Shown in pieces: positions 7,715 through 56,018 of a stretch of DNA of 64,000 nucleotides. This DNA is from Mesorhizobium sp. L-2-11 (GTDB taxonomy: Bacteria; Pseudomonadota; Alphaproteobacteria; Rhizobiales; Rhizobiaceae). The stretch is taken from NCBI RefSeq assembly GCF_016756595.1, contig NZ_AP023257.1:6154001-6218000 (forward strand), written 5' to 3'. Position numbers and translations under genes: made by a program. The first letter of the stretch is position 1. The number at the start of each line of letters is the position of its first letter. The notes under the pieces are model-generated. The model was given only the letters and a program-made list of their open reading frames with translations, was not told where the DNA came from and made no database searches.

Positions 7715-9685
7715 CTACGAAACGCTCTGTCCGCTCCTCTGCCGTCCGAGGGTCCATGAGATGGCCTCCCCGCGCACCACACCGGAAACCTCCTTGCCGA
7801 GATGTCGGTCAAGCACTGGTCGCCATGGCACCAGCGTGAATTCTCGCGACTTCTCGATGACAGCGTACTTGCCGCTAGCAAGGTCGACGGATCGGCGCAG
7901 CGTGCCTTCTATTCGATCTCCAGGCTGCGCTTCGGCATACGCGAGACCGAGCTGATCCGACAGCTGGCCGGCGACACGGTTCAGCTCGCGCTGGCGCAGG
8001 ATCGAAATCATGTTGGCGCGGTAGACGGTCCGGTTCTGCTCTTCATGCGCGAGGCCTTGCGCGATCAGCCACTGCCGCCGGCGGACTTGCGCTTCCCGTA
8101 CCTCACCGCCAAAGCCGGAGGTGCGCAAGGCCTCCGGTCGGTCGGCAACCAGCTGCTGGTCAATCCAGGTGGCGCCGTCAGAACGGACCTGTCGCTCCAG
8201 CGGCATTGACGAGAGCTCGTCGACAACAACAGGCTCGGCCCTGGCCCGCTGGCGCTCATAGTCAGCGACACGGTTGAGGTGATCTGGCGCGATGATCCAG
8301 GCTCCGTCCGGCTCGCGCTCCACGCCGGCGGTCGCGCGGCGGATCGCCTCCAGCCGCCGCACATGGGTTTCGGCAAAGCGTTCGGTGGCGGACGGATCAT
8401 GCTTGAGGTGAATGTCGATGGAATAGCGGCCCTCATGAGTAGCGGCGATCTCGGCGATCGCCCGGTCAACCGGCGTGGGCTCGATGTTCCTCGGCGTGAC
8501 ACGCACGATGCAGCCGTCGGGCGTCGGCCCAGCGGCCTCGCCCTTGCCGATATCGACATAATGGCTTTTCCCGTCCACACCGTCGACGACGAGGTAATGC
8601 CGGTCGCTGATCTCGTCGGCCAGCCCACGCACGACGACGCGACCGACAATAGGTGCGGCCAGCGGTTCCGGTCGATCATGCACAATGTAATCGGCAGCAC
8701 TGCGGGCGAGCCCCTTGCCGGTCAGCTCGCGGTGCATGGTCTTGATGATGTCGCCGCGCTCGCCAACGCGGCGCAGCGTCGCCTCAAGCTCGTCGTCCAG
8801 ACGCCACCTGCCAGAGCCGATCTCATCGGCTAACCCCATCCGATCGAGCTTGCGCAGGCGTCCCTGATGCAGCGTCTGGCGAAAGGCGTCCCGGCCGTCC
8901 GGCGTGACATGTCCGTCGTCGTCGCGCATGCGTAGCAGCTGCCGGTCTATGCTGGTGAAGCGCTCCTGTTCCATTTCCTGGCGCAGGCGCTGCTCGATCT
9001 CGCGGTCGGTGCGAGGACCGAGATCGAGGCTGACCAGTTCGGCCCCGCGCTCGCGCAAACCGGACGAGATGTAGTCGCGGGCGATGACGAGATTCTCGCC
9101 GCGATCGTCCTTGCCGCGAACGATGACATGGGTGTGGGGATGGCCAGTGTTGAAATGGTCGACGCCAACCCAATCGAGCTTGGTGCCGAGATCCTCTTCC
9201 ATCTGCGCCATCAAGCGTCGGGTCAGTGGCTTGAGGTCGTCATACTCAATGCCGTCTTCGGCGGCGACGATGAAACGGAACTGATGCCGGTCGCCATCGG
9301 CACGATCGAGGAAGGCCTTGCCATCGACCCGATCTTTGTCGGCACCATAGAGTTGGCCAGGCTCGCCTTCGCGGGTGACGCCGTCGCGCTGGAGGTAGCG
9401 CAGGTGCGCGTGCGCTCCGTCGGAACCCTTGCCGGCCAGTTTGACGACCCGTGCCTTGACGACGACACGTCGCAGCCGAAAGGCGGCGTAGCGGTCGCGT
9501 GACTTGAGCAGCGCGGCTGCGGCCCCACCCCGCCCAGCCCGGCTTCCCGTGAAGCGGCCACCGCGCGGGGACCTGCCGCCGGCTCGGTTGATTGCAGCTC
9601 GGACCTGGCCGGCGAAGCGTTTTTCTGCCTTCGAGCCGCGCGACCCGATCTTGCCAAGCTTTGGCCTGAACTCGTCGTCTGTCAT
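7715..9685 (-). CDS. rlxS: Conjugative relaxase, VirD2-like with DUF3363 region (RlxS-type)
   Basis: A 656-residue relaxase. The histidine cluster of the nicking domain is seen in VGVDHFNTGHPHTHVIVRG (about residue 190), and the long C-terminal half fits the DUF3363 region of rhizobial relaxases. The start at 9685 is preceded by GGAGG; an upstream in-frame ATG at 9781 lacks such a signal. The gene lies downstream of a transglycosylase, traF and an rdfS-like gene in one direction. This is the order known from ICEMlSym-type symbiosis islands, where the relaxase nicks oriT and leads the strand into the recipient. The symbol is assigned from this context plus domain content. Confidence 0.88.
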   Translation of the reverse strand: MTDDEFRPKLGKIGSRGSKAEKRFAGQVRAAINRAGGRSPRGGRFTGSRAGRGGAAAALLKSRDRYAAFRLRRVVVKARVVKLAGKGSDGAHAHLRYLQRDGVTREGEPGQLYGADKDRVDGKAFLDRADGDRHQFRFIVAAEDGIEYDDLKPLTRRLMAQMEEDLGTKLDWVGVDHFNTGHPHTHVIVRGKDDRGENLVIARDYISSGLRERGAELVSLDLGPRTDREIEQRLRQEMEQERFTSIDRQLLRMRDDDGHVTPDGRDAFRQTLHQGRLRKLDRMGLADEIGSGRWRLDDELEATLRRVGERGDIIKTMHRELTGKGLARSAADYIVHDRPEPLAAPIVGRVVVRGLADEISDRHYLVVDGVDGKSHYVDIGKGEAAGPTPDGCIVRVTPRNIEPTPVDRAIAEIAATHEGRYSIDIHLKHDPSATERFAETHVRRLEAIRRATAGVEREPDGAWIIAPDHLNRVADYERQRARAEPVVVDELSSMPLERQVRSDGATWIDQQLVADRPEALRTSGFGGEVREAQVRRRQWLIAQGLAHEEQNRTVYRANMISILRQRELNRVAGQLSDQLGLAYAEAQPGDRIEGTLRRSVDLASGKYAVIEKSREFTLVPWRPVLDRHLGKEVSGVVRGEAISWTLGRQRSGQSVS

Positions 9686-15780: not shown

Positions 15781-15906
15781 GGGGAAACACGTGGCACGCC
15801 GTCATGCAAAATCATCGAATGTGCGTCAGACCCAATTTTGCACGCCGGTTCGCACCCGTATGAGGCGCTGAGTAAATCTAGACTGAGACCAGGAGTGCCC
15901 GCGACT

Positions 15907-16812
15907 TCACATGCGGGATGCCTCCTGCAACATTATCTGCCGCATCCAGATGCTTGCCGGATCACTGTTGTGGAGGGTGGGCCATTGGACGGCCTCGGTG
16001 AACGTGGGTAGTGGCCGCGGAAGTTCGATGATCCGCAAGGGGAAGGTTTCTTTGAAATGCTGAACCAGCCGGAAGGGCATGGTCGCTATCCGAGCTGTGC
16101 CTGAGACCATCGGCGGGATCATGCTAAAGGCCTGTACGACGATCTCAACACGTCTCTTGAGACCATGCTCAAGCAAAAACTGTTCCTCGATGGATGGCAT
16201 CTGGGCACCGCCGACCCTGAACGCAATGTGTTTCATCGACACGTATCTCTCGAATGTAAGCTGACGTGGCAACTGCTTGTTCGTGGGGCAGCCCACGCAC
16301 ACGAATGTCTCGTCGAACAGCGCCGCTCTTGGATGGGCGCTCGACATGAAAAATTCCGGAAGAATCACAAAATCGACGTCACCGCGCCGGAGAAGCTCAT
16401 CGGGGTCGTTGTCGAGCGGCCGCAATTCGAAGCTGACGGCGGGTGCTTCGCGTGCAACCCGCTCCACGACCTTTTCAAAAAACACGAGTGTGGCGAAATC
16501 GGAAAGAATGATCCTGAAGCGGCGATCGGATTGAGCCGGATTAAACGGATCCCAAGAAATAATCGAGCATTGGATGTGCAAGAGTGCGCCACGAACAGCG
16601 GGGGCGAGTGTTTCCGCACGCGGGGTTAGAACGCGTTCGCGGCCGCTCATCGTAAACAGTTCATCGTTGAAATAGTTGCGCAGCCGGGCGACGGCCGCGC
16701 TCATGGCCGGCTGACTAAGGTTGATGCTGCTTGCCGCCGCCGTGAGGTTGCGCGCGGTCAGCAGTGCGTCGAGCACGACGAGAAGGTTCAGATCAAGGCC
16801 TTTGAAACGCAT
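15907..16812 (-). CDS. nodD1: NodD, LysR-type activator of nod genes (shorter copy)
   Basis: A 301-residue LysR regulator. The N-terminal [18 protein letters not shown] and the [24 protein letters not shown] are diagnostic of NodD, followed by the ligand-binding domain that senses plant flavonoids. It is closely similar to the second NodD at 18885-19829 but 13 residues shorter. NodD binds nod boxes and activates the adjacent operons when inducer is present. Upstream, on the opposite strand, only a broken nod box and nodA/nodB tails remain, so this nodD has lost its divergent operon. Which of the two copies matches nodD1 of reference strains cannot be told here. Confidence 0.88.
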
Positions 16813-44520: not shown

Positions 44521-44822
44521 GCCGCGATCTCGTCTTGTTGCGCGCGTTCGGCCTCGGCGTTGAAGCCCAGAAGAAAATCGGTGGCCTTGGAGGCAAGGCT
44601 GGCGGCGCGGAAGATGGCGCGATTGTCATCGCGCAGCACCTTCAGCCATGTGCCGATATAGTCGGCATGGCGCACGGTCGGCTCGATGCCGAGGGTCGAG
44701 CAGACAAAGGCTGCGGTGATTTCGGCAACCAGTTCCTCGCGCGCATAGGTCTTGGAACCGAAGGCGCCGGAGAGGTCGCGCGCCAGCCGCGCCGGGTGGC
44801 CGGTCCAGTGGCCAAGCTCGTG
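44517..44822 (-). pseudogene. ardC: ArdC-family antirestriction protein, C-terminal part
   Basis: It begins with the codons for HELGHWTGHPARLARDLSGA, that is, the zincin HEXXH motif, and continues to EERAQQDE-like C-terminus with EELVAEITAAFVCS. The N-terminal 219 codons are at 53637-54293. The six bases CACGAG (His-Glu) are present at both breakpoints; joining them once gives an intact 320-residue ArdC. The break falls exactly in the zinc-binding motif. Confidence 0.9.
44817..44822. repeat. 6-bp CTCGTG repeat at left end of GInt-type element
   Basis: CTCGTG (CACGAG on the coding strand, His-Glu of ardC) flanks the element here and at 53631-53636. It is the likely crossover core. Confidence 0.85.
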
Positions 44823-44903
44823 TTAGGTCACATCTCCATGGCGTCCTTTCTGTCATCTCCCTGATGGGGAATCAGGACAGTTTCTACGTATGAGACGCTG
44901 CTC

Positions 44904-44951
44904 CGCCTTTCGCGGGGAGCGGGCCCGAGGGCCTGCTCCCCGCGAAAGGCG
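44904..44951. other. Long perfect hairpin near left element end
   Basis: CGCCTTTCGCGGGGAGC is followed after 14 bases by its exact reverse complement (17-bp stem). It lies between the left end and ginA. A smaller palindrome (CCTGATGGGGAATCAGG) is at 44860-44876. They could be a terminator protecting the element from ardC-side transcription or recombinase-binding structure. Confidence 0.8.
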
Positions 44952-45245
44952 GGTCGCCCGAATTGGAGAGCCTTTGGCCGAGCTATTGTTCACTTCCGAT
45001 GAGTTTGCACCGAACGGTATGTCAGTCCCTGGCGTGCCGATGCTCCTCGACCGAGAGATGCGTCTGGTCGAACCGGCTTGTGCCTGGTTGCTGCACATTG
45101 CGCTCGTAAGAGGACGAACACGCAGCCGGCAGACATGGCGCACTTATGGTGAAGCCCTTTACGACTGGTGGCAGACCCTCGAAGCGAATGAGTGGATATG
45201 GGATGAGGTCGGCGTCGCGGAAATCGCTGCGTACCGAGATCGGAT

Positions 45246-45253
45246 GCTCTTTC
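45246..45253. repeat. 8-bp target duplication of IS66 in ginA (left)
   Basis: GCTCTTTC precedes the IS66 end at 45254 and recurs at 47784-47791. Confidence 0.95.
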
Positions 45254-45261
45254 GTAAGCGG

Positions 45262-46911
45262 TCAGCCGATAACGTCAGGCCTAAAGTTCCAAGGCATGAG
45301 CATTTCGATTTCGGATGCCGGCCAGCCTTGAGCGATGCGGGTCAAGGTCTGCGAGAGCCAGTCGAGCGGATCGACGCTGTTCATTTTGCAGGTTTGCAGC
45401 AAGGTGGCTACCGTCGCCCAGGTTCGTCCACCGCCGTGGCTGCCGGCGAATAGACTATTCTTTCGCGTGATCGTCTGGGGCCTGATTGCACGCTCGACGA
45501 TATTGGAGTCGATTTCGATGCGACCGTCCATCAGAAAGCGTTCCAGCGCCTCCCGCCGGGTGAGCGCGTAGCGGATCGCCTCGGCGGTCTTGGATTTTCC
45601 GGAGACCTTGCCCAGTTCCGCTTCCCATAGATCGAAGAGGCTCGCGACAATGGCCACGGACTTTTCCTGACGTAGCGCGGCGCGGCTTCCGGCATCCTTG
45701 CCGCGGACCTCGTCCTCGACCTTCCACAATTCGGTCATGGCGATGATCGAATCCGTCGCGGCCTGCGAGACCCCGCTGATGTGCAGGTCGTAGAATTTGC
45801 GCCGCAGGTGAGCCCAGCACCCGGCGAGCCGGATTGTTTCATTGCTGCCGGCTTTGGCCCGTGCCTTGACCAGGTTGGTATAGGCCGAGTAGCCATCCAC
45901 TTGCAGGATACCGCTGAATCCGGCGAGGTGGCGCGCCACGCAATCCGCACCTCTGCTGTCTTCAAAACGATAGGCAACCATTGGCGGACTGGTTCCGCCA
46001 TAGGGTCGGTCATCCCGTGCGTAGGCCCACAACCAGGCTTTCGTGGTTTTCCCGGAACCAGGGGCAAGGGTGGGCAAGGTCGTCTCGTCGGCGAAGACCC
46101 TTTCGCCCTCCTTGATGCGCTCCAGTATGTAATCAGCAAGCATCTGCAGCTCGAAGCCCAGATGCCCCATCCACTGCGCCATCAACGACCGGCTGATCTC
46201 GACGCCGTCGCGCAGATAGATCGCCTCCTGCCGATAAAGCGGGAGGCCGTCGGCGTATTTGGAGACGGCGATATAGGCGAGCAGCCGCTCCGTCGGCAGC
46301 CCGCTTTCGATGATGTGCGCCGGCGCCAGAGCCTGGACCACGCCGTCACGGCCCCGGAAGGCGTATTTGGGACGGCGCGTGACGATGACCTGGAACTTCG
46401 GCGGCACGACGTCCAGCCGCTCGGATCGATCCTCGCCGATCAGAACCTTTTCAAGCCCCTCGCAGTCGGCCGGGATTTCCGGCTCGACGACCTCCTCGAT
46501 GCGTTCGAGGTGGGCAGCAAAGCCCTTGCGCGGACGCGGGGCGCGCTTCGGCTTGTTCCCGACCGCGCGGTCGAGTTCGCTCCGGATTTCCGAAAGGCCG
46601 GTCTCGACCTCTTCGAAGGCAAAGGAGGCCTGCTCGTCGTCGATGGCCAGGCGTAGCCGCTCGGAACGCGTGCCATGTTGCGTGCGCTGTAAAACTTTCA
46701 GGATTGACGTGAGATTGGCGATCCGCTCGCTGGCGCTTTTCTCGACAGCTTTCAGCCGGGCGACCTCCGCCTCAGATGCTGCGATCCGAGCGTCGGCGAC
46801 TGCGATCCGGGCCTCGCTTGCAGCCTGCTCGCGAGCCATGGAAAGGATCATCGCCTTCAGCGCATCAACGTCGTCGGGAAGGGCAAGACCCGGTAGAACC
46901 ATGGCAAGCAA
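45262..46911 (-). CDS. tnpC: IS66 transposase TnpC
   Basis: A 549-residue transposase with the same sequence as the product of 1111-2760, including the N-terminal coiled-coil and the DDE segments. The frame is intact, so this copy should be active. Confidence 0.93.
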   Translation of the reverse strand: MLAMVLPGLALPDDVDALKAMILSMAREQAASEARIAVADARIAASEAEVARLKAVEKSASERIANLTSILKVLQRTQHGTRSERLRLAIDDEQASFAFEEVETGLSEIRSELDRAVGNKPKRAPRPRKGFAAHLERIEEVVEPEIPADCEGLEKVLIGEDRSERLDVVPPKFQVIVTRRPKYAFRGRDGVVQALAPAHIIESGLPTERLLAYIAVSKYADGLPLYRQEAIYLRDGVEISRSLMAQWMGHLGFELQMLADYILERIKEGERVFADETTLPTLAPGSGKTTKAWLWAYARDDRPYGGTSPPMVAYRFEDSRGADCVARHLAGFSGILQVDGYSAYTNLVKARAKAGSNETIRLAGCWAHLRRKFYDLHISGVSQAATDSIIAMTELWKVEDEVRGKDAGSRAALRQEKSVAIVASLFDLWEAELGKVSGKSKTAEAIRYALTRREALERFLMDGRIEIDSNIVERAIRPQTITRKNSLFAGSHGGGRTWATVATLLQTCKMNSVDPLDWLSQTLTRIAQGWPASEIEMLMPWNFRPDVIG

Positions 46912-46978
46912 CAGAGCACAAAAACAGCCGCTTTCCCAACCGTTCCAGCCGCATGATTCATCTTGCCGCAGGCCGGTT

Positions 46979-47323
46979 TCAGCCCGTCGATAACGGCCGC
47001 CTGACCCTGGCCGGACGAATCTTTTTCCAGTCCAGTCCGGCCAGAAGCGCCATCAACTGGGCGTGGTCGAGACGCATGCGCGCGGCCGATATCCCCGGCC
47101 AGCAGAAGCTGTGATCTTCCAGAGTCTTCGAATAAAGACAAACCCCGCTGCCGTCCCACCACACGATGCGAACCCGGTCCGCACGCTTCGAACGGAATAC
47201 GTGAAGTGCCCCCGAGAATGGGTCCAGGCCGCCATCCCTGACCAGCGCCATCAAAGATGCCGCGCCCTTGCGGAAGTCGACCGGCTGGCACGACACGTAA
47301 ACCACCACACCGGAAGCGATCAT
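46979..47323 (-). CDS. tnpB: IS66 accessory protein TnpB
   Basis: A 114-residue IS66 Orf2 protein with the same sequence as the product of 699-1043; its start overlaps the tnpA stop. Confidence 0.92.
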   Translation of the reverse strand: MIASGVVVYVSCQPVDFRKGAASLMALVRDGGLDPFSGALHVFRSKRADRVRIVWWDGSGVCLYSKTLEDHSFCWPGISAARMRLDHAQLMALLAGLDWKKIRPARVRRPLSTG

Positions 47324-47727
47324 GCCTTACGAACCGCGCGGATGATCCTCGCCAGGCGATCGGGATCGACATCGCCGCCGGCGCGCACCACTGCGTCGCC
47401 AATGACGATTTCCACCGTGTCGCTGCCCACCGCTTCAAAGCGCGTGAACTTCGCCGGCTTGCTCGCTCCCTCCGTCAGTGGCGCAACCATGCCCGACGAA
47501 AGCGCCTTGCGGCGCCACGCATAGAGCTGCGAGGGGTCCAGCCCCTCGGAACGCGCAACCGCCGAGACATTGCCCCCTGGCGAGAACGCTTCGGCGACAA
47601 GCCGTGCCTTCTCTTCGTCCGACCGATGGCGCGGCTTGCGTCGGGACGGCACAGGCTCCGCCGTCAAAATCTCGAATGTTCGATGATGGCTCATACTGTC
47701 GCTCATAGGATTCTCCGCATGATTCAT
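47320..47727 (-). CDS. tnpA: IS66 accessory protein TnpA
   Basis: A 135-residue HTH protein with the same sequence as the product of 295-702; first gene of this copy. Confidence 0.9.
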   Translation of the reverse strand: MNHAENPMSDSMSHHRTFEILTAEPVPSRRKPRHRSDEEKARLVAEAFSPGGNVSAVARSEGLDPSQLYAWRRKALSSGMVAPLTEGASKPAKFTRFEAVGSDTVEIVIGDAVVRAGGDVDPDRLARIIRAVRKA

Positions 47728-47783
47728 GCTGAAAATGAGCGATCAACCGCCTGCACGCTACGTGGGGACGCCTACGCGCTTAC

Positions 47784-47791
47784 GCTCTTTC
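47784..47791. repeat. 8-bp target duplication of IS66 in ginA (right)
   Basis: GCTCTTTC, identical to 45246-45253, directly after the IS66 end; the ginA frame resumes here. Confidence 0.95.
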
Positions 47792-48650
47792 GACCCAGCG
47801 ATCACACCGGACGGGCCTATGCCCGCAGCACCGTCAATGGTCGCCTCAGAACATTGGCTTTGTTCTATCGATGGTGTGTTGCTGCGGGTCTCACTGATAC
47901 TGCACCGTTCAACACGAGCGAACTTGCGCTGTCGCGACGTCAGCCGCAGGGATTCCTCACTCATGTTGATGCCACCGGCGGGCGACAGCTCGCCAATGAA
48001 CTGACTATCCGGCAAACCTCGGCGCTGCCAAAACCGCTGTCGCCGGTCGCGTTGCGACGCGTGATGGCTGGCCTGGGGTCTCGCGACCGTTTGATAATCG
48101 AATGGGCTGTCACAACCGGCATGCGCCGGATGGAGGTAGCCGGATTGAGACTGCGGTCACTTCCACGATCCAGTCTGGATGCTCTGGTCGTCGTCAGAAT
48201 CGAAGCCACGAAAGGGGGCAAAACGCGGACGGTTTATCCGCCATTGTCCCTGATCGATCGCACGCTCGCCTATGCGCGCGAAGAGCGAGCGGTCATCGTT
48301 CGACGAGCCAAATTGCGGCACGCCGACTACGCGGAACCAGATGCTGTCTTCCTGACGGAAGCCGGTCGCGGAATCAGTGCTCGCCGTGTCGGTGCAATGT
48401 TCGCCGCCGCGGCCGGGACAGCAGGTGTGACGGCAAGCTTCCATGCGCTGCGACATACCTTTGCGACAGCGATGCTCCGGTTCTTGCAACGGCGGGCGCA
48501 AGACGAGCCGGAGCTCAATCCACTTCTCACCCTCCAGGTGGTGTTAGGACATGCCGATCTTTCTACGACGGCAATCTATCTGCGCGTGCTGGCGACAGAT
48601 CTGACACTGGTGGAATCCTCTGTCGACGAACTTTACGGGGCTCTTCTACA

Positions 48651-50438
48651 ATGAAGCGGCAACGCAAAGATTATCGGCTCGATCCATCGCCTATACCGCT
48701 CGCTGGCGAGCCTACTTCGCTGGTGGTCAACTTCCTTGATCCCAACGGTCGACTGGAAAAAAGCTTCGACTTCTCGATCTATGGAATGACACCAAGAGTC
48801 GCTGCCGAAATCGCGCTTGCCTTCCGCAACCACCATGCCGGTCACAGTCCGGCCACGCGCGAGGGAGCGTTCCATGCGCTTCGCCGTTGGTTTGTGTTCC
48901 TTGGTGAGCAAAATCCCGCCATCACATCGATGCGGGATGTCGATACAACAACGCTACGAGCTTTTATTGCGTGGCTCGATACCAAACCGTGGACCAAGAG
49001 TTCTCGCCATGGCACCTGGTCCGTGCTCAAACAGATGGTTCGCTGGCTGAAGCGCAATCGGCCTGAGCTCGTCGCCACCGATCTGGAAATCCCGTTCAAC
49101 GCCTTTCCTCGCAAGAATGCAGAGACGCGTCCCCGCGAGGCGCTGAGCCGGTCTGAGATGGAAGCGATCCTCTCCGCGGCTCGCAAAGACATAGAAGCAA
49201 TCTGGTCGACCTTCCAGGCTGGGAAAACCCTGCTCTCCCAGGTCGACCGCGAGGCTATCGCGCGGGAACGGGATCTCAGTCGGCTCGACCTTGATGATCT
49301 CGGTGTGATGCTCGCTGTCATCGTCGAGCATTACGGCGGGTTGGTTCCTCCCCAGAACGTGACGCTGGAGCGCGGTGCTGGTCGATGGCGGCTTCACTTC
49401 GCCTCGCTTAAGCATGGCGGGAACCAGAAGCTCGCGAGCTATCTTCACACCCTGCCCGAAACGCTGATTCCATACATGATCGCCATCGGGGCGCAGAGCT
49501 ACGCGAACCCCGAGGCCCTCCGAGAACTTCGACGGGACTGCATGAGCGATCATCTGCTTTTAGATGGCCGGGAAGTCATGACGTGGTCGAAGGGCCGCTC
49601 AAACCGAGTGCAGCGGCGAAGCTTCCTGCGTGACAAAAGTTTGTCGGTGCCTCACCTCATCGATCAGGTAGTGGAAATGACGGCGTTATTGATGCCCCAT
49701 GTTCCGGCGCATGATCGCGAGCGGCTCTTTCTGGTCGCGAGCATAAACGGCACGCGTGCGATCAAGCTGATCCCCGACTACTTGATGAGTAAGCACGTCA
49801 GATTGTTCGCCCAACGTCACGGCCTTGTTGACGAAAAAGGCGCGCCGCTCGCGCTCACCCTGGCCGCGCTGCGAACTACGGGGCTCACTCTCGCGCATGA
49901 AACGCTCGGGCACGATATCCTGAAGACCCAGATCCTCGCCAATCACGCCACGCCGGATACAACGCAGCGCTATATCGATCGGCCGATCGTGCGAAAGGCC
50001 CAGGAGCGCATTATCGGTGATCTGCAATTACGCTTCGTCGAAGCCATTCGCAGCCCCCACGATGAGGCTGATGACGAACGTGATGCCGACGTAGCGACAG
50101 TCCAGGCCGAATATGCCACGGCTGCCGGCTTCATCTGCAAGGATCCACTCGCGGGCGTCGGGGAAGGCCAGAAAACTGGCCGTCTATGCACGGCCTGGCT
50201 GGGCTGCTTCACCTGCCCGAACGCGGTGATTCCTCTCGATCCTGGTGTTCTAATCCGGTTGCTGTCGACGCGAGATGCCCTTGTCGCGGCACGTCAAGCG
50301 CTGGCTCCGGACCGCTGGCGGCTCCTCTACGCGCCGAAACTGGAAATCCTCGAGCACGACATCCTGCCGCGCTTCTCGCCGGAGCTTCACTTGGCCGCGT
50401 CCATGGAAGCGGCACCAGCTCTGCCGGTGATCGAATGA
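48651..50438 (+). CDS. ginB: GinB, large tyrosine-recombinase-like protein
   Basis: A 595-residue protein. An N-terminal SAM-like core-binding region (SPATREGAFHALRRWFVFL) leads into a divergent phage-integrase domain. The C-terminal catalytic boxes are partly degenerate: LAALRTTGLTLAHETLGHD has Ala where the usual His stands, while NHATPDTTQRYIDR keeps His and Tyr. A Cys-containing segment (CTAWLGCFTCPNAV) lies near the end. The start overlaps the ginA stop and the stop overlaps ginC, both as ATGA. In GInts all of ginABC are needed for movement. Confidence 0.85.
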   Translation: MKRQRKDYRLDPSPIPLAGEPTSLVVNFLDPNGRLEKSFDFSIYGMTPRVAAEIALAFRNHHAGHSPATREGAFHALRRWFVFLGEQNPAITSMRDVDTTTLRAFIAWLDTKPWTKSSRHGTWSVLKQMVRWLKRNRPELVATDLEIPFNAFPRKNAETRPREALSRSEMEAILSAARKDIEAIWSTFQAGKTLLSQVDREAIARERDLSRLDLDDLGVMLAVIVEHYGGLVPPQNVTLERGAGRWRLHFASLKHGGNQKLASYLHTLPETLIPYMIAIGAQSYANPEALRELRRDCMSDHLLLDGREVMTWSKGRSNRVQRRSFLRDKSLSVPHLIDQVVEMTALLMPHVPAHDRERLFLVASINGTRAIKLIPDYLMSKHVRLFAQRHGLVDEKGAPLALTLAALRTTGLTLAHETLGHDILKTQILANHATPDTTQRYIDRPIVRKAQERIIGDLQLRFVEAIRSPHDEADDERDADVATVQAEYATAAGFICKDPLAGVGEGQKTGRLCTAWLGCFTCPNAVIPLDPGVLIRLLSTRDALVAARQALAPDRWRLLYAPKLEILEHDILPRFSPELHLAASMEAAPALPVIE

Positions 50439-52255
50439 AGGCGCGACGTGCTCGAAAACCTGTTCTCGCCGAGTGGTCCGAAGCACCGCTCTCGCAATGG
50501 AGCCGGTTCGGCGATGATGAATGGTTGCTCGACATCCGGACCGCCGGCCGGCGCGCCGACCAGAACAAAATGAGCTGGACGATCGCCTTGCCGGAGGGAG
50601 CTGTCATCAGTGAAGACGCGTGGCGTGCTCTCCATGAAACCGCGAAGCAGTTCTTATGGTCGATGACCGTGAATCCACCAGCCGGTCGCAAGCGGCTGTC
50701 ACCAACGTCGGTGCATGGCAAAGCCATCACCCTGAAAACCATGATCCGGTGGATGGTGCTCGACGGACTGGAGACGTTCAGCAGCATTGATGCCGCGGCC
50801 GTGGAGCGGCTGCGAGCCTGGCTGCTGACACGAGTGGGATACCGGGGAAAGCCCATCACGGCGAACACCATCGTCAACTACATGGTGGTGCTGAAGGATC
50901 TCTATCGACAGCGAACCAAGCTTGATGATGCCCCGTTGATCGATCCTCTGCCGCAGGAGACGACCTATGAGGCGGCAGGCCTGACGCCCGCGACGCGCGG
51001 TGCGATCCCGTTCATTCCCGATGCCATTGCGATCTCCTTGCTGAATACCGCTCTGCAATGGGTGGAGGACCATGGTCCAACGATCGTGAAAGCAGAGACG
51101 ATCCGACGCGAGGCACGGGCGTTCGGACTGACCCAAGGGGCAAAAAGGCAAGCTTCCTACCATGTACGCAAGGCATTGCGGCGTGCCGATCTGAAAGGCC
51201 CTGCGGGCGAAGCACTGTCCGGCGCGTATGCGGTCCGCCACGCTGCCACGCATCTCGCGGAGGCCTGCTATATCATCATTGCCGGCTTCGTCGGCATGCG
51301 CGTGAGCGAAATCCTCTCGACCGAGGTCGGTGCCATCGAGTTCCACCCCATCGGGGATACCGGCGTCGATCAAGCCTACATTGTCGCGCGGTTGTTCAAG
51401 ACCGTCGACCAGCATGGCGGACGACTGGAGCGCTGGATTGCTCCTGACCCCGTGGTGAAGGCGGTCAGCCTACTTGAGCAGCTGAGTGCACCGTTGCGTA
51501 AAGCGTCCGGAAGGCGAGAACTCTTCCTCGTCAAAAATACCCAGTACGGCGAGATCGTCCCGGTCACCCAGATGCATATCGGCTGGCGGATCAACGATTT
51601 TGCCCGACATGTTGGCGTGCCCATGCACGAGGGAAAGCCTTGGGCATTCAGCAGCCACCAGTTCCGCAAGACGTTTGCGCGCTTTATCGCGCGAAAGGAC
51701 CGGTCGCAACTTCTTGGCCTTGCGGGGCATTACAAACACGCATCGGTCGCGATGACCGCGCGTGGTTATGTCGGCAGCGACTTCGATCTCCGGCAACTCG
51801 TCGATCATGAAAACCGGGCGGAAACAGCCACGGCATTGGAACGAATGCTGGTCAGCGATCGACTTGCCGGGCGCATGGGCGAGCGCATTGTCGCGGGCAA
51901 CGCCCGGTTCCGGGGACGCGCCGGCGAGCAGGTCCGTCAGGATTACATCGAGTTTGTCCTCGCCGAAACGGACCTGCGCATCCACGCCTGCGATTACGGC
52001 TGGTGTGTGTTCCAGCAGGAGACCAGTCGTTGTGGAGGTGAAATAGCACCCAGCGAGGCCGGCCGGAGTCCATCTGTCTGCCTGGGCTGCGCGAACATGG
52101 TGATCGAGCCGCAGCATGCGCCTTATTGGCAGGACCGTCGGACGAGGAACCAGGTGTTGCTCCCTGCCGCCAACGAAATGACGGTCGCGGTTCTCACCGA
52201 GGCAATCGAACAATGCGACAATGTCCTGATCAGGATCGGAGAACATGATGGATGA
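50435..52255 (+). CDS. ginC: GinC, large tyrosine recombinase
   Basis: A 606-residue recombinase. Conserved boxes: IIIAGFVGMRVSEILS (first Arg), FSSHQFRKTFARF (His-x-x-Arg) and GLAGHYKHASVAMTARGYVG (His and Tyr). The C-terminus has several cysteines (CDYGWCVFQQETSRC, CLGCANMV) that may bind zinc. ATG at 50435 overlaps the ginB stop. The frame is intact. With GinA disrupted, it may still bind the element ends but probably cannot complete the reaction. Confidence 0.85.
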   Translation: MKARRARKPVLAEWSEAPLSQWSRFGDDEWLLDIRTAGRRADQNKMSWTIALPEGAVISEDAWRALHETAKQFLWSMTVNPPAGRKRLSPTSVHGKAITLKTMIRWMVLDGLETFSSIDAAAVERLRAWLLTRVGYRGKPITANTIVNYMVVLKDLYRQRTKLDDAPLIDPLPQETTYEAAGLTPATRGAIPFIPDAIAISLLNTALQWVEDHGPTIVKAETIRREARAFGLTQGAKRQASYHVRKALRRADLKGPAGEALSGAYAVRHAATHLAEACYIIIAGFVGMRVSEILSTEVGAIEFHPIGDTGVDQAYIVARLFKTVDQHGGRLERWIAPDPVVKAVSLLEQLSAPLRKASGRRELFLVKNTQYGEIVPVTQMHIGWRINDFARHVGVPMHEGKPWAFSSHQFRKTFARFIARKDRSQLLGLAGHYKHASVAMTARGYVGSDFDLRQLVDHENRAETATALERMLVSDRLAGRMGERIVAGNARFRGRAGEQVRQDYIEFVLAETDLRIHACDYGWCVFQQETSRCGGEIAPSEAGRSPSVCLGCANMVIEPQHAPYWQDRRTRNQVLLPAANEMTVAVLTEAIEQCDNVLIRIGEHDG

Positions 52256-52694
52256 CCCACGCTCGCCTTCCGCCTTGTCTGCGGCGCGCGCTTATCGTGC
52301 GGCGCTGGCTCGACTGGTTCGTGGCGAGGGCCGCCATCCGGATCATCAGGGGCGCATCGTGAGGATCAGTCCCGCTTCGGTCGCGCGTGAAGCGGGGAAA
52401 AGCCGAAATCCGCTCTACACGACACATCGCGACATCCTCGATGAGATCGAGGCCGCCGTACAGGCACCAGGTCCTTCCAAAGACCTCGCGGCCCGGGTGA
52501 CGGAAATGGAGGTTGAGATTGCACAGCTCCGTTCCGAAGCCCGCCGGCACAGCGAAGAAAAGCGGAAGCTGGCGAGCGAAAATCTAGCACTCCTTCACCG
52601 GGCGAGGACGGCGGAGGACAAACTGGCATCCTCGCAGCGGCGGGCGCCATTGGCGCCTGCCGCTGCGTTGCCTGTCAGGCCGCTACCGCGCTGA
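52245..52694 (+). CDS. ginD: GinD, small coiled-coil accessory protein
   Basis: A 149-residue protein. An HTH-like start (ISPASVAREAGKSRNPLYT) is followed by a helical, heptad-rich stretch (VTEMEVEIAQLRSEARR to LLHRARTAEDKL). It overlaps the end of ginC by 11 bases and is the last gene of the gin operon, matching the size and place of GinD in GInts and the small third gene of Tn554-like elements. It likely binds DNA with the recombinases; no enzyme motif is seen. Confidence 0.75.
   Translation: MMDDPRSPSALSAARAYRAALARLVRGEGRHPDHQGRIVRISPASVAREAGKSRNPLYTTHRDILDEIEAAVQAPGPSKDLAARVTEMEVEIAQLRSEARRHSEEKRKLASENLALLHRARTAEDKLASSQRRAPLAPAAALPVRPLPR
52635..52665. terminator. Hairpin between converging ginD and ardC-like gene
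   Basis: CAGCGGCGGGCGCC, loop ATT, GGCGCCTGCCGCTG: 13 of 14 positions pair. It lies in the last codons of ginD just before the converging ardC-like gene ends, so it may stop transcription from both sides. No U-tract follows, hence moderate confidence. Confidence 0.5.
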
Positions 52695-53577
52695 TCTGCT
52701 GGCAGGGCTGTTGCGCATGCATCCAGTCGACAGCGGCCTGAGCCTTGCTTGAGGCCGTGAAGATGGCGGAGGTATCGGCGCGAAGGACCTTCAACCAACT
52801 GGAGATATAGGCGGCGTGATCCGGCCTTGGCCGTGCCGATATCGATAGATCGGCGAGAACCATGGCTGCTCCAGCGTCAGCAATTATCTCCTCCATGGCA
52901 TAGGCTTCGGAGCCGAACCGTCCGGATAGATCGCGGTCGAGTCTGTGTTTTACTCCTGACGCGTGAAGACCTTCATGGAAAAGCACGCTGTAATGAGACG
53001 CGACGTCGCGGAATGAGCTGAAAACTGGCATATGCACCCGATCAGCCGAAGGCAAATAGTAGGCTTCGTTGCCTCCATATACGGTGCTGATCCCAAGGTT
53101 CGCATAGAAAGCATCAGCGTGTGCGATACGTTCTTCTTCCGAGCGGGCAACCGCCGGTTCTGGCTCATAACCATCGACCTGGGCGCAGTTGAACACCGAA
53201 TAGCCGCGGGCGAATAGACGCCGACGCTCACCATCATTGGAATCATCATCCTCATAAGTCTTGCCGCCGATCTGCCCCCAGAAGACGACGGTTGTGGATC
53301 TCTCACCTTTGCGCACCTGGGCACCAAGGGCCTGCCATTGGCGATACGTTCCCCAGAGGCCGGCAGGATATCCAGCGCTATGCGCCGCGACCCACAAGGC
53401 AAGTGTGTTCACGCCACGGTAGGCCTTGCCGGATGCAATATTGGTCGGCCGGGCAGTGGCTGTTCCATCATGATGCCAGGGCATCACATACTCGCCAGCA
53501 CCGGCTTCGATGGCAGCGATAATCTCTTCAGTGATGCGGGCATAAACATCTGCTCGGTTCAGAGAAGCCATCGTCAT
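52675..53577 (-). CDS. ardC: ArdC-like antirestriction/zincin protein carried by the GInt-type element
   Basis: A 300-residue ArdC-family protein. An N-terminal ssDNA-binding-type domain (DVYARITEEIIAAIEAG, MPWHHDG, YRGVNTLALW, GERSTTVVFW) is followed by a zincin domain with HEXXH as HEGLH and EEIIADAGAAM downstream. ArdC proteins protect incoming DNA from restriction; protease activity is inferred from the motif. It is preceded by GGGAGGG. Its ATG overlaps the stop of the truncated native ardC N-terminus (ATGA), so it is placed to be translated from the native ardC transcript. It differs widely in sequence from the native protein. Confidence 0.87.
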   Translation of the reverse strand: MTMASLNRADVYARITEEIIAAIEAGAGEYVMPWHHDGTATARPTNIASGKAYRGVNTLALWVAAHSAGYPAGLWGTYRQWQALGAQVRKGERSTTVVFWGQIGGKTYEDDDSNDGERRRLFARGYSVFNCAQVDGYEPEPAVARSEEERIAHADAFYANLGISTVYGGNEAYYLPSADRVHMPVFSSFRDVASHYSVLFHEGLHASGVKHRLDRDLSGRFGSEAYAMEEIIADAGAAMVLADLSISARPRPDHAAYISSWLKVLRADTSAIFTASSKAQAAVDWMHAQQPCQQISAVAA

Positions 53578-53630
53578 GCCCTCCCTGCTGCAGGTGCTGA
53601 AGCAAGAAGGACACTTGCGATGAAACCTAA

Positions 53631-53636
53631 CTCGTG
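53631..53636. repeat. 6-bp CTCGTG repeat at right end of GInt-type element
   Basis: Second copy of the flanking repeat at 44817-44822; encodes the His-Glu codons of ardC. Confidence 0.85.
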
Positions 53637-54293
53637 GAAGCAGGTGCGGTAATAGTCGATCTGCTGAAAGAATGCCGGCTGCGGCGGCACCTGAATGGAG
53701 TCGGTCCCCGGCATGTAGAACGCGCGATCGCCGCCGATGCGGAAATCCGCGCCGCTTCCTCGAATAAGCGCCTCGGCCTGCGGGATGATCTCGCGTTCGG
53801 GCAGCGGTTCGGCGTTGCCATAAAGGTGCTCGGGCAGGCCGTCGCACTGCGCGACGTTGAAGACGGTGAAGCGCTTCAAGTACGGCACCGCCTGCGGCTC
53901 GTCGCCGTCTGTCCTGGCGCGCTCCTGCTCGCCCTTTGGGACAAAGCGGTCGGCATGCACGATTGTTGTGCCGCGCTCGCCCTTCCTGACATTGCCGCCA
54001 AGGGCAAGCGCCTGCAGGAAGGTCAGCCAGTTCTGGCCGGGATAGCTGCGCTCGATGACGGCGCCCCACAGGATGAGGATGTTGATGCCGGAATAGCGGC
54101 GCCCGGTGGCCGCGTTGCTGGGCAGGCCGAGGTCGGCCTTTGCGCTGCCCCATGGCTTGACCCATGGCACGGTGCCGCGCTCCAGTTCGGCAATGATGCG
54201 GTCCGTGATCTCCTGATAAAGGCTGGCGCCCGAGCGCCCGCCCCTGCCCGCGCCAGCCTCTCGGCTGCCGGAACGCTGGTGTTTTGCACGCAT
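53637..54293 (-). pseudogene. ardC: ArdC-family antirestriction protein, N-terminal part
   Basis: It encodes 219 codons up to the HEXXH motif: ASLYQEITDRIIAELERGTV, PWVKPWGSAKADLG, YSGINILILWG, KGERGTTIVHADRF and YYRTCFHE. Translation then enters the element, reads about 15 further codons and stops at 53574-53576, overlapping the ATG of the cargo ardC-like gene. The C-terminus is at 44517-44822. The gene is the first of the ardC, DUF2958, parB run. Confidence 0.9.
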
Positions 54294-54718
54294 CGTCTGG
54301 TCCTCCGCTCTTCAATCCCGCGCCTTTCCCCGCAAGTGGGGTGGGCGGCGAGACGCGACCGGAAAGGCCCGCCGTCGGAGGCGGACCGCATCCGAAGGAC
54401 CGGAACGAAGAGGAGGACCCGAAGCGCAAGCGAAGGGTTGCGGGACGCCGCGGCGGGCCTAGAAGGGAGTGCCGCCCACCCCGCGCCGCCGGGAAAGGCC
54501 AACAGACAAACCGCGCCGGCCGGCAGGGCGGCGACCGTCAGCAGCCGACAGGCTGCCCGCGCCAGGGGGCGAAGCCGGATGGCCGAGACCGCCTGAGCCT
54601 GGCGAAGAAAAAGCGGGCTCGGTTCACGAGCACCCGGCACGCGCCGTCAGGCGCGCGGGCGCGTCAGATTTCTGCGCCGTGCGGACATCGGTTTGGCGTT
54701 CCGGTCGCACTCGTTCAA
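54294..54718. other. No recognised gene; likely ardC promoter region
   Basis: About 425 bp, very GC-rich, between the ardC start and the end of the omptin gene. No nod box or other motif recognised. Confidence 0.45.
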
Positions 54719-55687
54719 TCAGAACGAGGTCTTGATGCCGACCATCACTGTCGCCGCGGCAAAATCGCCGCCGATCCAGTCGTCTTCGCCGCCAGTCTCT
54801 GCGCCGGTCGCAATGTCATAGGTGTTGTAGTCGCCGCGAGCGGTGAACACCTTTTCGTAGGAACCGGAGACGAAGAAGCTGGTCCGCTCGTTGTACTGGT
54901 AGCCGACGCTGCCGCCGACCATCAGAACCGGCGCCAATTCGAAATCATCCTCGAAGCGCAGGTCACGCATCCAGTGATGATCGGTAGCGCCGGCCGAGAA
55001 GGTCGTGCCGCCCTTCAGCGCAAAGCCGAAGTTCCAGCGATCCTGGACATAGGTCGCATCGATGCCGGCGAAGGCGACCGGCAATTTCTGCTGGTAGCTG
55101 ATGGCCTTTGCGTCTCCTGGGAAGCCGCCAACCGAATCCCGGAAGCCGGCAACGCTGTAGACATAGGAGCCGCCATAGGCAGTCCACTTGACCGAGGTGT
55201 ACTTGAAACCACCGTTGACGTTGATCAGCAGCTGGTCACTGAACTGGAAATCGTGGCCGAGCGCGACGGTTGCCGAATAGAAGTAATCAAGATCGGTGTC
55301 GGAATGGCGCGAACGGTTGCTCCAGTCGTTCCAGCCATCATTGGTCGAGAATGACGGGTTCCAGTCATAGTCTTCCATGTAGCTGTCGCCGCTGAAGGCG
55401 ATCTGGCTGGAAAGCTTGGCGGTCCAGCCGGCCTCGCTGCGCGCCGTCATCTCGGCTGAAATGACCGCAGAGGTGCCTTCCCAGATAAGGTGGCTCAGCT
55501 TCGAGCCGCTGCCGGGAGCCTGATAGACCAGCTCGTTGGCCTCGATGTCGATGACGCCGACGCCGCCAACGAAAGAGAAATTGGGATTGTAGGGCGCCGG
55601 TTCGCTCGCCACCGCGTCGCTGGCCATCGCCGGCCAGGCAGCGAGCAACGCTGCCGCTCCACCAAAGACTTTCGCGTACAATTTCAT
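54719..55687 (-). CDS. Omptin-family outer-membrane aspartic protease
   Basis: A 322-residue protein from ATG at 55687 with GAGGG upstream. A signal peptide (MKLYAKVFGGAAALLAAWPA, cleavage near AMAS) precedes an omptin barrel. The active-site pairs are visible: Asp-x-Asp in YMEDYDWNPSF and Asp-x-His in ATDHHWMRD, as in OmpT/Pla, and the barrel ends in Phe. Omptins cleave peptides between basic residues at the cell surface. It is rare in rhizobia. A truncated nod box lies 90 bp upstream pointing at it, suggesting past control by NodD. Confidence 0.85.
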   Translation of the reverse strand: MKLYAKVFGGAAALLAAWPAMASDAVASEPAPYNPNFSFVGGVGVIDIEANELVYQAPGSGSKLSHLIWEGTSAVISAEMTARSEAGWTAKLSSQIAFSGDSYMEDYDWNPSFSTNDGWNDWSNRSRHSDTDLDYFYSATVALGHDFQFSDQLLINVNGGFKYTSVKWTAYGGSYVYSVAGFRDSVGGFPGDAKAISYQQKLPVAFAGIDATYVQDRWNFGFALKGGTTFSAGATDHHWMRDLRFEDDFELAPVLMVGGSVGYQYNERTSFFVSGSYEKVFTARGDYNTYDIATGAETGGEDDWIGGDFAAATVMVGIKTSF

Positions 55688-55740
55688 AGGACTACCCTCA
55701 TGGGAATCATCCGCCATTCGGCTATACGCAGCGTGCCGGG

Positions 55741-55792
55741 TGCACGTCACGTGCGGTCGTCTATGCAGCGCCCCTGTAGGTTGGCAAAATTG
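55741..55792 (-). promoter_or_regulatory. Truncated nod box and leader upstream of omptin gene
   Basis: GGTTGGCAAAATTG at 55779-55792 is the 3' end of a nod box, and the following leader (GCGGTCGTCTATGCAGCG) closely matches the leader beside the nolL nod box at 18800-18820. The 5' two thirds of the box is replaced by integrase remnant DNA. Confidence 0.65.
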
Positions 55793-56018
55793 CCGCCCTC
55801 GGCTCTGTTCCTCAACACTCAAGGAAACGCCGTTAGCGTGACCCGATTAACGGCGGTTTTTGCCGATGCGTTCCGGGCAGCCGGCGTGACGGGAACCCCT
55901 GCATTATCCGAGGCACACATTTGCGATGACGATGCTGGTACGATTGCAGCGGCAGGCAGCGACCACGCCGGACCTCAATCCGCTGAGAATCGTGCAGGTT
56001 GCTTTGAGCAGCCCATAG
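55793..56018 (+). pseudogene. Tyrosine recombinase C-terminal remnant
   Basis: ALFLNTQGNAVSVTRLTAVF and DAFRAAGVTGTP are followed, after a frame change near 55908, by RHTFAMTMLVRLQRQAATTP and LNPLRIVQVALSS, the catalytic region of a phage-type integrase related to GinA. Both ends are lost. Confidence 0.75.

Follow-up and report, generated by a model that had tools for sequence, protein, structure and literature searches.

The window, a 64,000-nt stretch of contig NZ_AP023257.1 of Mesorhizobium sp. L-2-11, contains an integrative element at positions 44823-53630, which measures 6,270 bp without the IS66 insertion that it carries. Its ginA-, ginB-, ginC- and ginD-like genes lie on the plus strand, and its sole cargo, an intact ardC gene, lies on the minus strand. 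The element separates the 5′ and 3′ parts of another ardC, which we refer to as the host ardC (Table 1).

Table 1. Features of the element and of the interrupted host ardC, in window coordinates
Feature	Position	Strand	Basis or remark
Host ardC 3′ part, starting HELGHWTGHPARLARD	44550..44822	-	ArdC profile positions 203-290
Left 6-bp core CTCGTG	44817..44822	+	Sequence
Left end TTAGGTCACATC	44823..44834	+	Inverted match to right end
ginA-like tyrosine recombinase	44974..48654	+	PF00589, 70.8 bits; tblastn of L030 GinA
IS66-family insertion	45255..47784	.	8-bp duplication CTCTTTCG
ginB-like	48651..50438	+	Start set by analogy with L030
ginC-like	50435..52255	+	tblastn relatives in 270 plasmid records (query from 50450)
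ginD-like small protein	52245..52694	+	Place after ginC as in GInts
Cargo ardC, intact, 298 aa	52675..53571	-	ArdcN and MPTase-PolyVal, motif HEGLH
Right end / leader, 59 nt	53572..53630	-	att arm TTAGGTTTCATC..GTGTCCTT, read as tail
Right 6-bp core CACGAG (His-Glu codons)	53631..53636	-	Sequence
Host ardC 5′ part	53574..54293	-	Full ssDNA-binding domain (ArdcN) and metallopeptidase domain as far as His-Glu of HExxH

The recombinase operon resembles that of the GInts (Bardaji et al. 2017, PMC5385486), for which the accessible part of that report describes an operon of three tyrosine recombinase-like genes closed at one end by a small ginD, with cargo beyond it and a high insertion specificity. 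Gene order, lengths and overlaps reveal an operon of this type both in the window and in a relative, L030 of Mesorhizobium loti NZP2037. The longer ginB-like frame reaches 20.1 bits for Phage_int_SAM_1, below the cut-off of 22.3, the longer ginC-like frame has no Pfam match, and the ginD-like protein has no match in Pfam or NCBIfam; the element is classed as GInt-like from gene order, lengths and overlaps and from the PF00589 domain of GinA, with no match above cut-off for GinB or GinC. Cargo occupies the space between ginD and the other end, being ardC in the window and ars genes together with ardC in pCAR3. In the latter (L034 11221-13926), the arsenic resistance (ars) cluster is placed between ginD and ardC, and ardC is still terminal. 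In the window, ginA is split by IS66 into pieces at 44974-45255 and 47785-48654; this copy of the element may be stranded unless other copies help.

The element ends read TTAGGTCACATC on the left (44823) and TTAGGTTTCATC, inverted, on the right (53630), and the 6-bp core CTCGTG flanks both sides, with CTCATG to the left of L009. Flanking direct repeats (attL/attR) in GInts are imperfect and 10 nt or longer; here, the 6-bp core is the only clear repeat, and the arms are inverted. Strand-biased circularizing integrative elements (PMC10214605) likewise have four conserved genes and, in their joined site, a 6-bp spacer between imperfect inverted repeats; the accessible text of that paper describes them as a group distinguishable from GInts. 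Inside the left end lies a stem-loop with an unbroken 23-bp stem (44903-44952; DNA fold z -6.7), kept in all four copies of the element in this genome, which may block transcription or join in recombination.

At the right end, the border between host and element is exact: the core occupies 53631-53636, and element DNA begins at 53630. As the first-pass annotation had noticed, the frame of the host ardC, which starts on the minus strand with the ATG at 54293, runs into the element and ends there at a TGA (53576-53574), ahead of an intact ArdC-like frame on the same strand that ends at 52675. The host part matches PF08401 with 138.6 bits and positions 1-54 of the 126 of PF18818, and past His-Glu it continues as an 18-codon tail, LGFIASVLLASAPAAGRA, encoded by the element. 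That annotation had also placed the cargo start at the ATG at 53577-53575, overlapping the stop as ATGA and preceded by GGGAGGG. All of these are present, but the next ATG, at 53571-53569, is the better start. The GGGAGGG (53585-53579) ends only 1 nt before the first ATG and lies 7 nt before the second, and since relatives in addition keep a stop-NN-ATG arrangement (see below), we take 53571 as the start of the cargo. A scan of 52600-54720 for sigma-70 promoters returned no site; as only 0.3 sites are expected by chance, this leaves room for a promoter. Host ardC adjoins a gene for an omptin-family outer membrane protease (54719-55822), which is also found in L136.

The cargo protein has the features of ArdC, an ArdcN domain and, after it, a zincin-like metallopeptidase domain whose HExxH motif here reads HEGLH; both Pfam families score above cut-off (PF18818 147.1 bits, PF08401 135.5 bits, for the frame from 53577). 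It matches the structure entries of R388 ArdC, 6i89/6sna, over 5-285 with an E value of 4e-55 and shares the two domains described for that protein in the accessible part of PMC7213743. R388 ArdC, however, is a plasmid gene and its structure entry reads HEATH, whereas the gene studied here is the cargo of an element.

When the window was compared by BLASTN with other stretches of the genome to which it belongs, the unit proved to be present in four copies, two on contig C1 (one of them in the window) and one each on C2 and C4, which are 99.9-100% identical over 5.85-5.87 kb (6.27 kb in total). IS66 is absent at the ginA position from the other three. All four copies sit at the His-Glu codons of HExxH, and because the N-terminal ardC fragments at their right ends share only 39-60% identity with one another, four different ardC genes have been struck at the same codons. 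An empty site on the Mesorhizobium plasmid MesoLj131c2 (L136) documents the site-specific insertion. The ardC of this plasmid is unbroken at HELGHWTG and 97% identical in protein to the window fragment, its neighbourhood is shared with the window (omptin, aldolase, OmpW, P450), and the window flanks align to it with 99.1% identity over 2,267 bp and 96% over 99 bp, in adjoining matches that overlap by 5 nt. The same plasmid ardC is cut some 30 codons further on, where the window is uncut; as each is uncut where the other is cut, the two serve as empty sites for each other's element.

The copy on C4 is part of a stack (L011 2520-16947) with three ardC-carrying element ends and the gin-like genes of a second GInt. 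Here, an ardC cut at His-Glu precedes the terminal part of a relative, 81% identical, which includes the first part of that relative's ardC (type B). A third type of element end (type C) interrupts this type B ardC at Met-Pro-Trp, and the type C ardC is in turn cut at His-Glu by the present element. Such an arrangement appears to consist of the remnants of successive insertions, and it has probably been reshuffled, since the left remainder is of another ardC type (HEAAH). In L010, the left ardC piece (9493-9607) is 98% identical to the window ardC and the right fragment (15868-16479) only 46% in protein, a mismatch suggesting that element copies may have recombined with each other.

To survey relatives, we searched with GinC in plasmid records (270 records, of which 20 were analysed, picked by hand among 60 listed) and in genome contigs (the best 80 of 168 confirmed stretches), and with the cargo ardC in 146 genomes of the genus (30 loci, then 20 longer stretches), and we ran an ArdC profile built from eight proteins over the loci. 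Merging of identical fragments reduced 35 rows to 28 sequence-distinct right junctions at His-Glu, with the small duplicates L001-L008 and L014-L029 left out; several can come from one genome, with five from that of the window and three from G468. An ardC stands at that end in 25 of the 28. L139-L188 were located by means of the cargo ardC, and the rate of cargo among them is therefore not independent; within the subset found by GinC (from L030-L129), which is blind to the cargo, the count is 15 of 18. The first-pass annotation had proposed a survey for an outward-end ardC-like gene with an ATGA join, and had named gin elements in ardC that lack a cargo ardC at that end as evidence that would count against its reading. 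The gene was indeed found at most junctions, but three that target ardC lack it (L069, L070, L072), and the ATGA overlap fails as a conserved signal: 22 of the 25 coupled junctions read stop-NN-ATG, and L066 alone depends on ATGA. The remaining two (L031, L071) are in-frame read-throughs, with the truncated and the cargo ardC in one open frame.

The stop codon at these junctions is TGA or TAA, and the tails, counted from the codon after His-Glu, measure 17, 18, 26, 36 and, in L065, 47 codons; tail lengths thus vary and the stop/start spacing is kept. L065 has a run of N between fragment and junction, the cargo ardC of L149 has itself been cut, and that at the second L011 junction is interrupted after 33 residues. 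Of the four copies in G468, one lies off target in an unrelated repetitive gene, where the frame stops at once and no coupling is seen. This gene (L186, around 1900) looks adhesin-like from its sequence and contains the core by chance.

With mononucleotide shuffles of five leaders, the chance that the first in-frame stop falls beside the start is 0.04-0.11 per leader, and 0.46 for L066. A single leader is accordingly a weak case, and the claim that the spacing exceeds chance rests on its conservation across relatives. These chances, and a tail peptide that shows no clear selection, would fit a spacing that arises as a by-product of conserved att-arm DNA, a Shine-Dalgarno sequence and a start codon, without selection for coupling. 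Beyond the att arm, however, length and sequence differ by lineage and the frame and stop position are retained, with either TGA or TAA, which makes this account improbable. The same exact spacing, over 22 distinct junctions with tails of different length, also argues against the view that no exchange is needed and that the cargo is an ordinary passenger, close to the broken gene for reasons of compactness. According to the accessible part of PMC7213743, protease activity is dispensable for antirestriction by R388 ArdC; a truncated N-terminal ArdC might therefore still work, and the ArdcN domain is complete in the host fragment. Cargo of the same gene as the target nevertheless recurs in duf736 elements and at the EExxA site described below, and we consider this view, too, unlikely.

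The cargo ardC is under purifying selection: by the NG86 method, dN/dS was 0.03-0.14 in nine of the ten computable pairs and 0.30 in one close pair, with three of 13 pairs saturated. For the 36-codon tails beyond codon 9, pN/pS was about 0.5-1.1 in pairs where both differ, and no clear selection on the tail peptide could be detected in these pairs; the tail is kept open and its peptide is hardly constrained. Descent of the cargo ardC from the target that it replaces was considered and rejected, as the N-terminal target part shares 30-50% identity with the cargo in 18 of 19 comparisons. The remaining one, at 66%, is L011, where the target is a type C cargo ardC; the second L011 fragment, one of the 19, was compared with the A-type cargo and not with its own.

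At the His-Glu site, the 25 ardC genes read HEGLH in 22 cases, HENGH in one and HECGH in one, and one is cut before the motif, whereas the 18 targets at left junctions read HEL (14), HEV (2), HET and HEA. Self-immunity through a recoded cut site is a possibility; it is held at that level because the target arms are loose and free-standing HEGLH ardC genes exist. The latter (L142, L143, L144) are 85-87% identical to the cargo and have an upstream region of their own, with no ArdC fragment or GinC match within 3.9 kb. The motif may therefore predate capture, and an ardC of this type is a possible source of the cargo. The ardC of L035, once a candidate cargo, was dropped, as it appears to be the plasmid's own.

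Target and cargo need not be the same gene, because in type C elements (L036 and L153, one and the same plasmid location, plus L150 and L151) ardC is coupled, with unchanged spacing, to a DUF932 gene that has been split. Pfam gave no match for the DUF932 fragment; its identity follows from an annotated DUF932 protein that is 71% identical to it over 180 aa, with matches in all four type C loci and both halves in L036. A similar leader and ardC behind another gene is what would be expected if a passenger antirestriction ardC at the edge of the element were expressed from the promoter of any gene struck, with ardC as a secondary target and the targets perhaps being early-expressed plasmid genes. 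This reading is possible, although we place it well below even odds. Against it, the identifiable targets of the main clade are all ardC save for the one off-target copy, with several rows lacking an assignment, DUF736 elements carry duf736, and early-branching elements target ardC without cargo. In a further type (L041, L049), ParB is split, and no second copy of the ParB N-terminal part was found within the stretch examined.

Other REPLACEMENTS comprised two groups, the DUF736 elements and the EExxA-site elements. In L044, L045, L046, L105, L114 and L115, a full-length duf736 at the right end directly precedes the 3′ remainder of a second duf736 (profile positions 13 or 14 to 98). The matching 5′ fragment, cut at codon 15, lies on the far side in L044, L045, L046 and L115, and also in L110, where no full duf736 copy was seen within the stretch examined; L107, L109 and L116 show a full or partial duf736 only, near a contig end or without a remainder. 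The stretch ahead of the full duf736 in L044 and L045 resembles that ahead of the split gene. Seven different GinC rows of the DUF736 type form one clade with a support of 98. A Bradyrhizobium plasmid (L043, 1-4708 and 5949-11278) has tandem gin operons with duf736 in two frames between them.

In ten loci (L136, L137, L169, L170, L172-L175, L177, L188), ardC is cut after the EExxA motif, and all ten have a full ardC of a different motif at the far end of an element that has distant GinC-like matches; this rate is biased, as eight of them (all but L136 and L137) were located via their ardC. The 3′ remainder was seen in seven and not in L174, L175 and L177. Three integrase genes are annotated in L136 and L137, and the other eight loci were scored by their GinC-like match only. 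In L188, the EExxA element has cut the cargo ardC of a His-Glu element, which adds a further layer of replacement.

In a tree of 82 different GinC rows, the ardC-targeting elements fall into one of two main groups (28 rows, six of them without an assigned target). The three rows that lack cargo (L069, L070, L072) diverge early; L071 is placed next to L069 and L072 at a support of 80. Rows with a coupled ardC form a later group of 21, supported at 98, together with three contig-cut rows without an assigned target. Because the early-branching elements target ardC without carrying it, the tree suggests that ardC targeting preceded ardC cargo. This was a quick tree with SH-aLRT support only, which leaves out L031 (broken GinC), has long branches for L036, L071, L035, L101 and L048, and labels L052, L060, L061 and L062 as ardC-targeting by their cargo ardC alone, as their contigs end before the target. 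The 'other' group of clade 2 holds 50 rows, whose targets are mostly unassigned.

Taken as a whole, the replacement anatomy is right, and broader than first noted, since it belongs to a site-specific family of elements. The target-gene replacement proposed in the first-pass annotation stands in the four targets of this genome, the 25 of 28 junctions, the spacing, the purifying selection and the recurrence with duf736 and at a second ardC site; it does not extend to the three junctions without cargo or to the type C elements at DUF932. We favour, with a probability of roughly 0.7, the reading that a minimal GInt-like element breaks ardC at its catalytic codons and exchanges the target for a frame-joined cargo ardC by termination-reinitiation. 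The element, made up of ginABCD and ardC, inserts site-specifically at the His-Glu codons and cuts ardC genes in the protease active site. With the insertion point fixed relative to these codons, the broken gene's frame enters the element in a single phase. The element end keeps this phase open for 17-47 codons, with the att arm read as protein, and then closes it immediately ahead of the ATG of a complete, divergent ardC. On this proposal, the promoter, message and ribosomes of the broken gene would thereby express the cargo ardC from a shared transcript through reinitiation, so that the target gene would be exchanged and not lost. If the cargo acts in antirestriction, the carrier may benefit, with a lower cost of insertion and continued protection of the host.

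The first-pass annotation knew of no such case for GInts. In the openly licensed literature, we likewise found no precedent for GInts, ardC or frame coupling, and the word ardC is absent from PMC5385486 and PMC10214605; target replacement as such, however, is known. Its nearest precedent is the recA mobile element of Vibrio cholerae S24 (Rapa et al. 2014, PMC4405046), an island which, as far as the accessible text describes it, lies inside a conserved gene, carries a divergent copy of that gene and excises as a circle. There, the carried recA has a promoter region with its own LexA site, whereas for the cargo ardC no promoter was seen and the gene is joined to the frame of the broken one; moreover, a single element is described there, compared with a family in many genomes here. 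The GInts in the accessible part of PMC5385486 target ABC transporter, ssb and ribonucleotide reductase genes instead of ardC, with an outward promoter and no cargo copy of the target reported in that part, and their authors consider that the target is probably not fully inactivated by insertion; unlike theirs, the cargo here can be as small as one gene. Islands in tRNA and tmRNA genes (Islander, PMC4383910) similarly restore the gene that they split. In the accessible description, however, island sequence regenerates the target, with displacement of a fragment, whereas the element studied here provides an entire divergent gene and leaves the original one disrupted.

At odds that we put not far short of even, the ardC genes of plasmids and islands may be a battlefield, on which at least two distant kinds of recombinase element break HExxH or EExxA and install their own divergent ardC. 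The copy brought to the HExxH site lacks the usual cut motif (mostly HEGLH instead of HEL-) and may escape its own kind. If true, nature would have its own equivalent of a disrupt-and-rescue drive, directed at antirestriction genes that mobile elements carry; the TARE gene drive (PMC7046741) is alike in outline, in that, per its accessible text, a target gene is disrupted while being rescued, but it is an engineered CRISPR drive and serves as an analogy only. On the battlefield reading, newcomers would overwrite their predecessors, and dead ardC fragments would pile up around a single live copy.

The usual view of integrative elements is that they limit harm by inserting into tRNA genes or at the ends of genes. 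Here, a gene is cut at its catalytic codons and a different allele, linked to that gene's reading frame, is returned, and a similar pattern is found in other elements with duf736 and at the second ardC site. If it works as it looks, this would be an allele-swapping mechanism for plasmid antirestriction genes, would allow replacement of a target gene by way of translational coupling to be tested directly, and would explain why truncated ardC genes, some of them annotated as 'ArdC-like ssDNA-binding domain' proteins, occur beside whole ones.
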